The notes under the pieces were generated by a model, which saw nothing but the letters and a program-made list of their open reading frames with translations, was not told the origin of the DNA and did not search any database. From Synergistaceae bacterium (GTDB lineage: Bacteria > Synergistota > Synergistia > Synergistales > Aminobacteriaceae): DNA of 64,000 nt. The DNA lies in NCBI GenBank assembly GCA_017405525.1, contig JAFRAH010000002.1, positions 1-64,000 of the forward strand, read 5' to 3'. Both the position numbers and the translations under genes were made by a program. Below, piece after piece: positions 11,280-20,399 of this stretch. Each line of letters opens with the position of its first letter. The stretch's first letter is position 1.

Positions 11280-13607
11280 ATGTTTATGGGGGTAATCAAG
11301 ATTTCACCTGTAAGAAAAACTGTGCCCGACATTACCGACGGCACAAAGGAAAAGAAAACTGCAAAGAAGGCAGGAACATCAAGGACAACTAAGACCACTA
11401 AGACAGCAACGAAAGCATCAGCCACCAAGAAGACCACTAAGACAACTGCCCCAAAGAAAGCCGCCCCCTCAAAGCCACAAGCAAAATCCCCGGCCGCCAC
11501 AACCGGGAAGGGCCGCATACTGGTCATCGTCGAATCACCGTCAAAGGCCGCCACACTCTCAGGAATGCTCGGAAAAGGCTACCTAGTCCGCTCAAGCAAG
11601 GGGCACATGAAGGACCTCCCAAAAAGCAGGATGGCCATCGATATTGAACATGACTTCACGCCTGAATATATACTCGTCAAAGGAAAAGCTGCCCTCAAGA
11701 ATGAGCTCCTCAAACTTGCACAGGACGCAAAGAACATACTTCTTGCCTCAGACCCCGACCGTGAAGGTGAAGCTATAGCCTGGCACTTGGCCGATATATT
11801 GGGAGTGAGCTTGTCCGAAAAGTGCCGCGTAAGATTCTACGAGATCACCGAAAATGCCGTAAGGGCCGCCGTGAAGAACCCCGACTATATCGACATCAAC
11901 AAGGTAGATGCACAGCAGGCAAGGAGAATATTAGACCGACTAGTTGGCTACACGTTGAGCCCCCTGCTCTGGAAGAAGATACGTTACGGGCTTTCTGCCG
12001 GTCGTGTCCAGTCCGTGGCGTTGAACATAATCTGCGAACGTGAACGGGAGATACAAGCCTTCATTCCTGACCCCTATTATGTCATCACGGCAATAGCTGA
12101 GAATGACGGAAGGCACTACGAGCTCAGGGCCTACAAGCTCGACGGAAAGACACTCATGAAGAACAGCCTCCCCCTCCTCATCAACACAAAGGAGAAAGCC
12201 CAAGAGATCATAGCGGAGATTAAGGCCAACGAAATAATCATCAAGGAGTTCAAGTCAAAGGACAGCGTTCACTCAGCACCCGCACCGTTCAGGACAAGCA
12301 CCCTCCAGCAGGAAGCATCACGGAAACTCAGCCTCATACCCGCCCACACAATGCGTATCGCTCAGGCACTCTATGAGGGCGTGAACGTTCCAGGAAGGGG
12401 GCACATTGGCCTCATCACCTACATGCGGACCGACAGCCTCAGAATTTCCGACGAGGCAATAACGACATGCAGAGCCTTCATCACCGCCAACTACAGACCC
12501 GAATACCTCCCTGAAAAACCCAACGTCTACGCCCCGGCAAGCAAGGCAAAAATCCAGGATGCTCACGAAGCAATCAGACCGACCGACATAACCCTAACCC
12601 CCGAATCACTCAAGGATGCATTAACCCCGGAACAGTACAAGCTATATTCGCTCATCTGGAGGAGGTACACAGCAAGCCAGATGTCCCCGGCAGTAACGGC
12701 AAAATCAACCGTTAAAGCAGAAGCCGGGCGCGTAAGCCTCAAGCAGGAAGGTGAGACGCTGATATTTGACGGGTGGAGCATTCTTTGGCCGCTTGACCTG
12801 AAAGGCTCTGAGCTCCCCAAAATCTCAGAAGGTGAGAGCTTGGAGCTCCTTGACGTTCAGAGCGAGAAGAAATACACGAAGCCACCAGCAAGATATTCTG
12901 AGGCAGGCTTAATCCGAACACTTGAGGAAAACGGGGTAGGAAGGCCGTCAACTTATGCCACAATTGCAGGTACTCTTGAGGGGAGGGGCTACATTGAGAA
13001 GAATGAGGAAAAACGGTTTTTCCCTACCGCACTAGGAATGACAGTTGATGAGTTCCTTGCACGATACTTCAACCGTAAAGACCTGTCATCAATCGTTGAT
13101 GCCGGATTCACCGCACAGATGGAGAAGGAGCTTGACGAGATAGAGGAGGCTCAAAGGAAGTGGCTCGATGTAGTCGGCGAATTTTGGGGCGAGTTCTCGA
13201 ACACACTCGAAGAAGCCGGGAATGCCCCACATGTTCCGCTGCCTGAACCTGAACCAATAGGCGAGGCTTGCCCGGAATGCGGCCATGACCTCGTGAAGAA
13301 GCGCGGGAGATTTGGCGAGTTCATTGCGTGCTCGAACTACCCGGAATGCAAGTACACCCGCCCGATACTCAGTACCATAGGCGTGAAGTGCCCGAAGTGC
13401 GGGGAAGGCGACATAGTCAGGCGAAAGAGCAAGAAAGGCCGGACGTTCTACGGTTGTTCGCGCTATCCTGAGTGTGATTATGTTGCGTGGAACAGACCTG
13501 CAGGGGAGAAATGCCCGGAATGCGGCGAAGAACTCTTCAGGAGAGGGCAGATGATATTCTGCGCTAAGTGCAAGTACAAGGCTGAGAGCGATAACCCTGA
13601 TGAATGA
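11280..13607 (+). CDS. topA: DNA topoisomerase I
   Basis: This type IA topoisomerase relaxes negative supercoils. After a Lys/Thr/Ala-rich tail of about 75 residues, resembling histone H1-like tails, comes the Toprim domain (VIVESPSKA, then DPDREGEAIAWHL). The active-site Tyr is at about residue 381 in GLITYMRTDS, followed by the remaining catalytic lobes. Three C-terminal zinc ribbons follow: CPECG...CSNYPEC, CPKCG...CSRYPEC and CPECG...CAKC. The frame is open from TTG 11262, and ATGs at 11280 and 11286 are in frame. No strong ribosome binding site decides between them. The methyltransferase gene overlaps its end by 8 bases. In many genomes topA is followed directly by trmFO. Confidence 0.97.
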   Translation: MFMGVIKISPVRKTVPDITDGTKEKKTAKKAGTSRTTKTTKTATKASATKKTTKTTAPKKAAPSKPQAKSPAATTGKGRILVIVESPSKAATLSGMLGKGYLVRSSKGHMKDLPKSRMAIDIEHDFTPEYILVKGKAALKNELLKLAQDAKNILLASDPDREGEAIAWHLADILGVSLSEKCRVRFYEITENAVRAAVKNPDYIDINKVDAQQARRILDRLVGYTLSPLLWKKIRYGLSAGRVQSVALNIICEREREIQAFIPDPYYVITAIAENDGRHYELRAYKLDGKTLMKNSLPLLINTKEKAQEIIAEIKANEIIIKEFKSKDSVHSAPAPFRTSTLQQEASRKLSLIPAHTMRIAQALYEGVNVPGRGHIGLITYMRTDSLRISDEAITTCRAFITANYRPEYLPEKPNVYAPASKAKIQDAHEAIRPTDITLTPESLKDALTPEQYKLYSLIWRRYTASQMSPAVTAKSTVKAEAGRVSLKQEGETLIFDGWSILWPLDLKGSELPKISEGESLELLDVQSEKKYTKPPARYSEAGLIRTLEENGVGRPSTYATIAGTLEGRGYIEKNEEKRFFPTALGMTVDEFLARYFNRKDLSSIVDAGFTAQMEKELDEIEEAQRKWLDVVGEFWGEFSNTLEEAGNAPHVPLPEPEPIGEACPECGHDLVKKRGRFGEFIACSNYPECKYTRPILSTIGVKCPKCGEGDIVRRKSKKGRTFYGCSRYPECDYVAWNRPAGEKCPECGEELFRRGQMIFCAKCKYKAESDNPDE

Positions 13608-14538
13608 GCTGACCTGTGTTGAGATATGCGCCGGAGCTGGAGGCCAGGCACTGGGGCTTGAGCGTGCAGGTTTCCGTCATTCCGCACTTGTCGAGTATGA
13701 GCCGGAATACTGCGAGGTTCTCAGGCTTAACCGTCCTGTGTGGAACATAATCTGCCATGATGTGAGGGACTTTGACGGCAGAAAGTATCATGGGGCGGAT
13801 CTCCTAGCGGGTGGCGTGCCCTGTCCTCCGTTCTCGATAGCAGGCAAAGGCTTAGGACAGTATGACGAGCGTGATTTGTTCTCAGAGGCTGTCAGGCTTA
13901 TACGCGAGATTAACCCCAAGGCAGTCATGATTGAGAACGTAAGGGGATTTTTGTCCGGCAGGTTCAGTGATTACAGGCGTGAAATCCTAAGCGGCATAGA
14001 GGCGCAGGGCTATACGGTCTTCATAAAGCTGGTGAATGCATCATGCTTCGGTGTCCCGCAGTCAAGGCAGCGTGCCGTTATCGTAGGAATACGCAATGAC
14101 CAGAACACACTATTCACATATCCTGAAGGCGATTGCGGCCATATAGTTACTGTAGGTGAAGCACTGTACGACCTTGCAGCATCGGACGGCTGGGAAGGTG
14201 CGGAATATTGGGCGGCTCATGCAGACAAGCCTGCCCCGTCAATTGTGGGCGGATCAAAGAAGCATGGAGGCCCGGACCTAGGACCTGTGAGGGCAAGGCA
14301 GGAATGGGCATCGATGGGAGTTGACGGCGGCAGTATCGCGGATAAAGCTCCATGCCCCGGACATGAAGGGATGATACGGCTGACACCGAGGATGATTGCG
14401 AGGCTTCAGGGATTTCCTGACACTTGGGAGTTCACGGGAAAAAAGACAGCAGTATGCCGGATGATAGGGAATGCTTTTCCCCCTCCTGTTGCTGAGGCTG
14501 TAGGCAGGAAAATAAAGGAGTGCTTAATTCATGAGTGA
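13600..14538 (+). CDS. dcm: DNA (cytosine-5-)-methyltransferase
   Basis: This 312-residue C5 methyltransferase has motif I CAGAGGQALGL (10-20), motif IV GGVPCPP with catalytic Cys75, motif VI ENV (112-114) and motif VIII QSRQR (154-158). A target recognition region lies at about 170-270 and a C-terminal motif X (MIGNAFPPPVAEAVG). It overlaps topA by 8 bases and the endonuclease gene by 8 bases, so all three are probably translationally coupled. From the partner nuclease it should protect GCCGGC, but this is inferred. It is likely acquired horizontally, because it separates topA from trmFO. Confidence 0.95.
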   Translation: MNELTCVEICAGAGGQALGLERAGFRHSALVEYEPEYCEVLRLNRPVWNIICHDVRDFDGRKYHGADLLAGGVPCPPFSIAGKGLGQYDERDLFSEAVRLIREINPKAVMIENVRGFLSGRFSDYRREILSGIEAQGYTVFIKLVNASCFGVPQSRQRAVIVGIRNDQNTLFTYPEGDCGHIVTVGEALYDLAASDGWEGAEYWAAHADKPAPSIVGGSKKHGGPDLGPVRARQEWASMGVDGGSIADKAPCPGHEGMIRLTPRMIARLQGFPDTWEFTGKKTAVCRMIGNAFPPPVAEAVGRKIKECLIHE

Positions 14539-15403
14539 GGCTCTAATATCAAAAGCAAGGAAAATCTTTCACAGGCATATGCTCGAAACCAACATACTAA
14601 CTGTCAGCCATGAAGGCATTGTATCGAACGCGGATTCATCAAGCACATCATCGAAAGCTGTTGCACTGAGGACAGCAGAAATCATCTCCGGCAAATGCGG
14701 TACGGGCATCAACATAATGAACAAGACAGCAGGCCAGATATTAGGCAGGCAATTTGAAGTCCTAGTGTCAGAATTTCTGCAGGATACGTTCCTTAAACTG
14801 GATGATATACGTCCCGGAAAATGGATAATAACGCGTGCAGGTTCAGGGATAAAGACAAGCAATTTTGCCCAGTATGAACATCTTGAACTTCTCAACAGGC
14901 TGGTTAGTGAAAATCCTAAACTTGCGGCCTCTATAGGAAACGACTACATAATAATTCCTGACATTGTAATTTACAGGGAGCTTTACGGGGATGATGAAAT
15001 AAACCTGCACACAAATATAGTTGAAGGCAATACTTCACTTTATGCTGACATAAGGAAGTCAAACGGAGGAAAGCCCTTACTCCATGCCAGCATTTCGGCA
15101 AAGTACACAATCAGGAGCGACAGGGCTCAGAACAGCAGGACGGAAGCACTTAACCTTATACGTAACAGGAAGGGTCATCTCCCGCACATTGTTGTGGTTA
15201 CAGCAGAACCAATGCCGGGAAGGCTTGCATCTCTTGCACTTGGTACAGGGGATATAGATTGCGTATACCACTTTGCACTGTACGAACTGGCCGAAGCAGT
15301 AAAGGAATTTGGCTCTGATGACTCATCTGAAATTCTGGACACTCTCATTAACGGGAAAAGGCTCAAGGATATATCTGACCTTCCCTTAGACTTAGCAGTA
15401 TAG
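14531..15403 (+). CDS. NgoMIV-family type II restriction endonuclease
   Basis: The 290-residue protein carries the NgoMIV signature YTIRSDRAQNSRTEAL-LIRNRKG followed by HIVVVTAEP and ALGTGDIDCVYH. The catalytic residues keep NgoMIV spacing exactly: Pro143-Asp144, Lys191 (46 residues between Asp and Lys, as D140/K187 in NgoMIV) and Glu205 (as E201). The NgoMIV SCK triplet is SAK here. NgoMIV is a tetramer cutting GCCGGC at two sites at once. The gene looks intact and is coupled to the methyltransferase by an 8-base overlap. Its codons are AT-richer than those of neighbouring housekeeping genes. Specificity for GCCGGC is inferred from family membership. Confidence 0.9.
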   Translation: MSEALISKARKIFHRHMLETNILTVSHEGIVSNADSSSTSSKAVALRTAEIISGKCGTGINIMNKTAGQILGRQFEVLVSEFLQDTFLKLDDIRPGKWIITRAGSGIKTSNFAQYEHLELLNRLVSENPKLAASIGNDYIIIPDIVIYRELYGDDEINLHTNIVEGNTSLYADIRKSNGGKPLLHASISAKYTIRSDRAQNSRTEALNLIRNRKGHLPHIVVVTAEPMPGRLASLALGTGDIDCVYHFALYELAEAVKEFGSDDSSEILDTLINGKRLKDISDLPLDLAV

Positions 15404-18674: not shown

Positions 18675-18964
18675 GGCCGCATCTTTGGGGGGGCTGATGA
18701 TTCCTTGTCGAGCTTGTAGACCCACGCCAATACCCGCGCAACTACCTCATAGAGCTCCGAAGGGATCTCCTCGCCGAGCTCAAGGGAGATTAACGCCGAG
18801 ACGAGTGCGGCATCCTCAACGATGGGAACGTCAGCCTCTATTGCACGTTCAACGATCTTGCGCGCAATGAAGCCCTCACCTTTGGCCACTACTTGGGGGG
18901 CTCTCATGCTCTGGTTGTCGTATTTGACCGCTACGGCCTTGTCTGGTTTGTTGTTGTCTGCCAT
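18671..18964 (-). CDS. FlhB C-terminal-like protein (YlqH type)
   Basis: This 97-residue protein resembles the cytoplasmic tail of FlhB/YscU export switch proteins: AVKYD, then a PQVVAKGEGFIARKIVERAIEADVPIVED segment. It lacks the membrane part, and the NPTH cleavage site is not seen. It matches the stand-alone YlqH proteins next to rnhB in Bacillus. ATG 18964 is the natural start. The upstream frame to 19063 is non-conserved. No Shine-Dalgarno is visible, and a TATAAT lies only 9 bases away (18979-18974), so the mRNA may be nearly leaderless. No flagellar genes are nearby and the role is unknown. Confidence 0.85.
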   Translation of the reverse strand: MADNNKPDKAVAVKYDNQSMRAPQVVAKGEGFIARKIVERAIEADVPIVEDAALVSALISLELGEEIPSELYEVVARVLAWVYKLDKESSAPPKMRP

Positions 18965-19000: not shown

Positions 19001-19009
19001 TGCTAGAAT
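19001..19009 (+). promoter_or_regulatory. extended -10 promoter TGCTAGAAT for the GT61 gene
   Basis: TGCTAGAAT sits 37 bases before ATG 19047 and is preceded by TTG. The divergent ylqH TATAAT (18974-18979) lies 21 bases away, so the two promoters probably compete. Confidence 0.5.
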
Positions 19010-19046
19010 ATTTCTGCTTAAAATCCAAAGAAAGGAGCTTGACAAA

Positions 19047-20399
19047 ATGAAAAATGGCATCATAATTGACCAGACCAGACCAGACCAGACTAATTATGAC
19101 TTTTTGTACGATAAGGAATACTACATCAAAAATATTCACACAGAAAGTTTAATAAACAAAAAGCTCAGTTATCGCGTAGTTGAGAACTGCACCGTACTGC
19201 CCTATATTGAAGGTGTAAACGAAGGCGGATTGTTCGACAGTAATGGTAATTACATCATAGGAAGCAGTTTCAGGGATGGGGGAGTGTGGGACATTGATGC
19301 TGGGAACACTATATGCACTAAACTGTCTTGCGTGGCAGAAAATATAGGCTTCAGCCTTGAAGACATACCTTTCAGGAATGAGACAGTAATACACACAGGA
19401 GTTCTTATGGGAGTATGGGGTCACTTTATCACTGACAGCCTCAGGTTGCTATGGTTTCTAAATACGCTTGATTATCGTGAGAAATTTTCACAATGTCAGC
19501 TTATATGCCTTCAAGGTTCAAGTTTTGCCGCTAGGTACAGCGAAAATCACAGGAGACTGCTCGAAATACTTGGAGTCAACACCTTAATGCTCGTTCAAAT
19601 TACTGAGCCCACAAAATATGAAAGGGTTATACTGCCTGATGAATGCTTCTTTATGTCAAAAAATAGAAAATATGCTACAGCAACACAGAGAAAACATTTC
19701 TTCACATCCGAATATGTGGGCATTATCGATTCTGTCAGGGCTTTTGCCGGAAGAAATACCGAAAATTTTACTCCAGAAAGGATTTATTACTCTTACTCAT
19801 CATACGCAGGAGGCAAAACATTTGGCGAGGACAAGCTGGAAAGATATTTTGCGTCCAAAGGCTACGAGATAGTTCATCCTGAGAGTCTATCGATTGATGA
19901 GCAATTAATAATGTTGGCAGGATGCAGGAGCTTTGCCTCGACGATAGGGTCATGCTCACACAATATTATTTTCCTCCCTGACAATGCAGAAGCCATACTT
20001 ATCCCACGCTCGTATTACCTGAACGGATATCAGTCTGCACTAGATCAAGTCCATAATCTGAATATAACGTATATTGACTCATCATTATCTATATTTGCAG
20101 GAGCAAAACTTTATGCAGGACCGCACCTTTATTACATCAGCAAGAATCTCAGGAAATACTTTCACGATGAGGACACTTCACCCATGATTGACGCATCTGA
20201 CTTCATGAAGTACATGAACGCATTTCCACCTGCTGACAGCCCCGAGGCCTACATGTACTACTGCCCGGTAGCAGCAGAATACTTCAGCCATCTCTTCCAC
20301 ATCATGAAGGAACGAAGCATCAGGGAAAAGCTCAAGGGAATACCCATGCTCAGGGCAGCAGTGCGGGCAGTGAAGAAGATGCTCAGGCTCATACGGTAA
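19047..20399 (+). CDS. glycosyltransferase family 61 protein, probably phase-variable
   Basis: This 450-residue cytoplasmic transferase probably builds surface polysaccharide. GT61-type features are GVWGHFITDSLRLLWFL near residue 120, RIYYSYSSYAGGKTFGEDKLERYF, GYEIVHPESLSIDEQL and a GSCSHNIIFLPDNAE block. AAAGGAG lies 8 bases before ATG 19047. The longer frame from 18822 runs over the ylqH gene and is not credible. Codons 8-15 consist of a CAGAC pentanucleotide run, so slippage would switch the gene off. It is AT-richer than its neighbours and lies opposite to the operon it interrupts, overlapping the ylqG end by 11 bases. Acceptor and donor sugars cannot be told. Confidence 0.88.
   Translation: MKNGIIIDQTRPDQTNYDFLYDKEYYIKNIHTESLINKKLSYRVVENCTVLPYIEGVNEGGLFDSNGNYIIGSSFRDGGVWDIDAGNTICTKLSCVAENIGFSLEDIPFRNETVIHTGVLMGVWGHFITDSLRLLWFLNTLDYREKFSQCQLICLQGSSFAARYSENHRRLLEILGVNTLMLVQITEPTKYERVILPDECFFMSKNRKYATATQRKHFFTSEYVGIIDSVRAFAGRNTENFTPERIYYSYSSYAGGKTFGEDKLERYFASKGYEIVHPESLSIDEQLIMLAGCRSFASTIGSCSHNIIFLPDNAEAILIPRSYYLNGYQSALDQVHNLNITYIDSSLSIFAGAKLYAGPHLYYISKNLRKYFHDEDTSPMIDASDFMKYMNAFPPADSPEAYMYYCPVAAEYFSHLFHIMKERSIREKLKGIPMLRAAVRAVKKMLRLIR
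19068..19090 (+). repeat. pentanucleotide simple repeat (GACCA, 4.6 copies)
   Basis: The 23 bases are four GACCA units plus GAC, at codons 8-15 of the GT61 gene. Five is not a multiple of three, so gain or loss of a unit shifts the frame. This is the layout of contingency loci. Confidence 0.95.

Follow-up and report, generated by a model that had tools for sequence, protein, structure and literature searches.

The GT61 glycosyltransferase gene examined here is very probably a translational contingency locus, one member of a genus-wide phasome that would amount to about 20 switches in this genome; switching itself has not been demonstrated. The gene lies in the window, by which we mean the whole stretch of 64,000 nucleotides of DNA from an uncultured gut Synergistaceae bacterium that was analysed, and carries a short tract of GACCA units close to its start codon (Table 1). 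An earlier note on this DNA had proposed the gene as a candidate for phase variation, and the proposal is supported by the many further tracts, the near absence of frame-neutral units, the randomised frames and the differences in copy number between close relatives. Not foreseen in the note are the promoter-like element that overlaps the start codon and forms a composite module with the tract, and the large number of other repeat units in use.

Table 1. Features of the GT61 locus, with positions counted along the window
Feature	Position	Strand	Description	Basis
GACCA simple-sequence tract	19068..19090	+	perfect, 23 bp, 4.6 units, codons 8-15	read directly
GT61 glycosyltransferase gene	19047..20399	+	450 aa, in frame (ON) in the assembly	ORF and Pfam PF04577
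ATG of the GT61 gene	19047..19049	+	within the P2 spacer	read directly; tract-less homologues start at the equivalent codon
Shine-Dalgarno sequence AAAGGAG of the GT61 gene	19031..19037	+		read directly
P1, extended -10 (TGC TAGAAT)	19001..19009	+	likely promoter of the full-length message	read directly
P2, TTGACA-N16-CATAAT	19039..19066	+	near-consensus sigma-70-like; overlaps the ATG and ends 1 nt before the tract	

The position of the ATG places the tract within the 450-residue frame at the codons where the earlier note had seen four GACCA units followed by GAC. Other in-frame ATGs occur farther upstream (the first listed at 18822), and the start adopted here is favoured by the Shine-Dalgarno sequence and by homology. 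The product matches the Pfam family Glyco_transf_61 (PF04577) with an E-value of 1.8e-11 and 44.9 bits against a curated cut-off of 27. Reading of the three downstream frames bore out the expectation that slippage by one unit would end translation early, as one added unit leads to a stop 19 codons past the tract and one lost unit to a stop immediately after it; at the present four units the frame reads through, which agrees with the claim that the assembled copy is ON. Two of the features expected of translational phase variation by simple sequence repeats (SSRs), namely a unit length not divisible by three in or ahead of an open reading frame and an upstream start that is open through the tract, are present; on the other side, many known contingency loci have tracts longer than the four to five units seen here. 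The tract is not a chance repeat, given that a 464-kb sample (the window plus 400 kb from arbitrary places of its own genome) holds only three perfect arrays of at least three copies and at least 17 bp, which are the window tract and two arrays with 6-bp units. The 15-bp run of three GACCA units did not occur in any of 100 shuffles of the window.

Nor is the tract an isolated curiosity, for there are many such tracts in the genome and the genus. The genome to which the window belongs holds about 20 short tandem tracts with units of 5, 7, 8 or 13 bp. GACCA accounts for four of these, at the GT61 gene, at an Acyl_transf_3 gene, at a GT2 gene and at a gene without a Pfam match, whose product is, on our own reading, possibly a fucosyltransferase-like enzyme. 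A search for the shared leader brought out tracts with other units in this genome, namely CCACG, GGCTCAC, CGGCTGT, CAAGCCT, GCTCACA, CGCACAT, CGCCCAA, CGAGCCA, GGTATCG and GACTCAG, an 8-mer (GGCTTCAG) and one 13-mer. Across the genus, which comprises ruminant and gut Synergistaceae assemblies, 46 GACCA tracts of 3 to 15 units were found in 15 of 37 genomes, and none was found in 24 genomes from other families of the order; the reversed-pattern control in these searches was uninformative because reversed GACCA is a rotation of itself. The leader motif GAAAGGANTTGACA is present in 31 of 43 genus genomes, and at most of the sites read it is followed by a tract, with up to about 14 units of TCACA. 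More than 100 tracts were counted in the DNA of the genus that was read, and their architecture is common to 15 species. The periods at P2 sites are 5 (58 tracts), 7 (42), 8 (1) and 13 (1), so that the only unit lengths divisible by three are those of three 6-mers, at which P2 matches weakly; arrays away from P2 in the genus DNA are mostly 6-mers.

Several observations indicate that translation is set to begin before the tract and to run through it. A Shine-Dalgarno-like core lies within 14 nt before the TTGACA hexamer of P2 in 37 of 39 GACCA loci (shuffle mean 13, maximum 23), an ATG is found in 29 of 38 distinct spacers of the GACCA set (shuffle mean 10.6, maximum 19), and of the 74 spacer ATGs in the whole set, 69 head a frame that stays open across the tract. 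Conserved protein starts, for example RNSSLELLR, stand directly 3' of the tract, and no start codon separates the two. The reading frames of relatives that lack a tract begin at the corresponding codon (MQNRNVRDSSLELL in L403, MQKSTVRDSSLELL in L395 and MQNSAITDQAVSVRDSSLEL in L402); these three are acyltransferases at the same kind of leader, and they rule out a translation start after the tract for this family. A further tract-less locus, L200, encodes a GT61 enzyme that likewise starts at the equivalent codon. Sense stop codons are absent from 37 of 38 unit types (antisense stops occur in 11 of the 38), the sole exception being L280, in which the 13-bp unit contains a stop codon, there is no upstream start and the gene has its own Shine-Dalgarno sequence downstream.

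The tract, the register of the start codon, the frame states, the unit lengths, the length differences between relatives and, by family, the gene functions can all be read from the DNA. A gene of at least 100 codons is present at 58 of 102 loci, in frame at 17 and out of frame at 41, an in-frame share close to one third, and all 41 out-of-frame genes keep full open frames; for this count the start codon was picked automatically, and some loci have more than one candidate. The comparison of unit counts in related genomes that the earlier note had proposed gave orthologous GT61 genes with about 3, 4, 5 and 15 units. In the closely related genomes G012 and G035, the shared GT61 locus has 3.0 and 15.6 units, respectively, with an upstream flank that is 94% identical and a gap of exactly 12 units, and another locus has 6.1 and 4.6 units with flanks of 96% and 93% identity and a gap of 14 nt. 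Paralogues in the window's own genome carry 5.6 and 8.6 units. Variation in unit number between conserved flanks is hence established between species only. The unit itself is replaced at one orthologous locus (CCACG, CATCT, TCACA and ATCAC) and at another (three 7-mers), and at some loci the gene has been swapped behind a matching upstream flank. Such swaps suggest that genes may have recombined at the tract or leader. Species differ in the gene after the tract behind the upstream flanks of L009, L041, L055 and L065, and also of L281 and L336; in L055, the upstream flank of L009 is joined to an L011-like gene.

A family scan of 60 downstream proteins identified nine GT2 and nine Acyl_transf_3 proteins, six GT61 enzymes, five methyltransferases, four pyruvyltransferases, four GT1-type glycosyltransferases and one each of a sulfatase, a UDP-sugar dehydrogenase and a sugar transferase. 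The loci fall into two classes, in which the tract lies either inside the enzyme gene or in a short leader ORF coupled to the gene. In the leader class, one frame ends between -4 and +12 nt from the next start in 19 of 22 loci (24% in shuffles), with exact ATGA overlaps in 8 of 22 (12% in shuffles); the overlap of leader stop and next start is present in most loci, and hairpins with T-runs in some only. Outside the genus, locus L355 (G084:C20, genus g18 of the same family) has a leader of this kind with a tetranucleotide tract (ACAG) after it, followed in turn by a hairpin with a T-run and then by a gene whose product has a signal-peptide-like start.

In the module, P1 often comes first; then follow the Shine-Dalgarno sequence, TTGACA, a spacer of 16-18 nt in which the start codon usually lies, a TAnnnT-like hexamer and, after a gap of 0-3 nt, the tract and the gene. 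An extended -10 equivalent to P1 is present upstream in 64 of 99 loci, as against 9% of shuffles. P2 (TTGACA-N16/17-TAnnnT) ends 0-3 nt before almost every tract, its spacer measures 16-18 nt in nearly all of the 99 loci and, judged on sequence alone, it satisfies the definition of a sigma-70 promoter (TTGACA, 16-18 nt and a TATAAT-like hexamer with A2 and T6 kept). Among the 128 perfect arrays of the genus DNA that was retrieved, 105 lie directly behind P2. This set was partly selected by P2 itself and therefore two less biased sets weigh more, viz., the GACCA loci, chosen by tract only, where P2 is found in nearly every complete leader, and the loci found by protein homology only, where it is mostly present, with variants such as L394, L391 and L397. 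One tract, L392, apparently lacks TTGACA. Among the six tract-less relatives checked, none has P2 above background, the element being degraded. In L046, L064 and L070 the start signals have moved into the spacer and TTGACA still stands 16-17 nt from the -10 hexamer; P2 therefore goes with the tract rather than with the ribosome-binding region, and these loci rule out that TTGACA is a part of that region rather than a -35 element. The quality of the P2 match does not correlate with unit number (Spearman 0.05), which rules out P2 strength as the driver of tract length. RNA started at P2 would begin inside the tract, and that message would therefore lack the start codon. The putative promoter against each tract is a real conserved feature whose role is unknown and which simple translational switching does not explain.

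It is conceivable, though doubtful at present, that P2 is a dedicated mutability element, at which RNA polymerase, by binding or by starting transcription, would make slippage more frequent through opening or blocking the DNA exactly where the tract lies. Promoter and tract together would then form a transcription-driven switch generator, a suggestion that is just as tentative. Such a role would explain why P2 stays fixed to the tract as start signals move, why units are replaced and P2 remains, and why P2 is degraded in tract-less relatives; the lack of correlation between match quality and unit number lends it no support. P2 could instead be a working promoter for transcriptional control, with the tract as the 5' end of the message and the unit number tuning initiation or leader length and not the frame. 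The near-consensus hexamers and the 16-18-nt spacer are compatible with this, as are loci such as L011, where a terminator just upstream leaves no room for P1, and the layout of L280 described above. We nevertheless consider transcriptional control improbable, since units with a length divisible by three are avoided, since no start codon stands between the tract and the conserved protein starts next to it, and since a Shine-Dalgarno sequence and ATG precede the point at which P2 would start RNA.

The 41 of 58 genes that are out of frame in the assemblies could also be taken as pseudogenes, with the tracts as stable coding repeats incidental to decay. This is very unlikely in view of the full open frames retained by the out-of-frame genes, the whole-unit length differences between close relatives with near-identical flanks, and the near absence of frame-shifting tracts elsewhere in the genome sample. 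It is harder still to believe that metagenome assembly produced wrong unit numbers throughout. Several tracts do lie at contig ends (the end of G000:C26, the start of G000:C4 and several in G029, G032, G005 and G027), and the GGTATCG unit at the end of G000:C26 is found nowhere else in that genome, so that this contig end may have arisen from reads with differing numbers of units. However, the 23-bp window tract sits inside a long contig, the architecture recurs in 15 species, and genuine heterogeneity could just as well be what breaks contigs at tracts.

Returning to the contingency-locus reading, we hypothesize that the number of 5-bp units in codons 8-15 of the GT61 gene changes through replication slippage, and that the resulting frame shift toggles between the full-length enzyme (ON, with four units) and OFF states that yield only peptides of about 13-35 residues. 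The phasome would randomise surface-polysaccharide enzymes across the genus, in one class through a tract inside the enzyme gene itself and in the other through a leader ORF that, read in frame, ends in a stop overlapping the start of the following gene, sometimes with a hairpin between. That slippage is the mechanism, that switching takes place and that the cell surface is affected are all inferred, as read-level, within-species and expression data are lacking.

By analogy, the design of this putative Synergistota phasome, with its unexplained promoter-tract module, corresponds to that of SSR contingency loci and of neuO; the leader class alone resembles the Pil1 switch. With the SSR contingency loci of Haemophilus and Neisseria (surface glycosylation genes and opa), it shares a short repeat near the start of a surface-glycan gene, a unit not divisible by three and random frame states, but it belongs to another phylum, uses many unit sequences at orthologous positions and has a promoter-like element fixed against the tract. 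To our knowledge, such a fixed element adjacent to the tract is known in no contingency locus of the Haemophilus/Neisseria type. Haemophilus hmwA, which has a 7-bp tract close to the transcription start, as the present 7-bp loci would have if P2 is active, differs in that its heptanucleotide promoter repeats reportedly exert a graded effect on transcription and do not switch a frame. The neuO gene of the E. coli K1 phage CUS-3 carries an AAGACTC heptanucleotide tract in the 5' coding region of an enzyme that modifies a surface sugar, and is out of frame in most genomes (65.6%; PMC13001214). The Synergistota loci share with it the 5' coding heptanucleotide tract, the surface-sugar enzyme and the mostly out-of-frame state, whereas neuO is a single prophage gene for which that study describes no tract-adjacent promoter element. 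In the Pil1/Pil3 system of Streptococcus gallolyticus, a frame-shifting GCAGA tract in a leader ORF is followed by a hairpin and the target gene (PMC3894217). This resembles the leader class in having a frame-shifting leader tract ahead of the target, but the targets are pilus operons of a Firmicute, whereas in the present loci leader stop and next start overlap, and the targets mostly serve polysaccharide synthesis.

A literature search limited to open-licence papers found no earlier description of such tracts in Synergistota, in line with the earlier note, which knew of none. The present loci would place large SSR phasomes in a further phylum, one of poorly cultured commensals from the rumen and gut, and random switching of surface sugars would therefore not be a trait of well-studied pathogens only. 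The conserved promoter-like element at each tract also offers a case in which one can test whether a genetic element governs how mutable a contingency locus is.

A few further observations were made. In genome G033, the tract behind the leaders of L076 and L077 (contigs C35 and C38) is (TGGTC)7, which is GACCA, the unit at other loci of that genome, read on the opposite strand; base pairing of the complementary tract RNAs was considered and set aside, there being only two TGGTC loci. The CTCTC tract of locus L350 (G000:C10, around position 1475) follows an ordinary promoter, a Shine-Dalgarno sequence and ATGACAGAGATC; it has no P2 beside it and corresponds to the classical layout of a contingency locus. 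At 13600-15403, the window contains a DNA cytosine methyltransferase-like gene followed by an apparent restriction partner, both recognised by eye without a family search. The window tract is flanked by an 8-bp inverted repeat (TCATAATT at 19060-19067 and AATTATGA at 19092-19099), and AATTATG-like sequences resembling this repeat lie 3' of many tracts.
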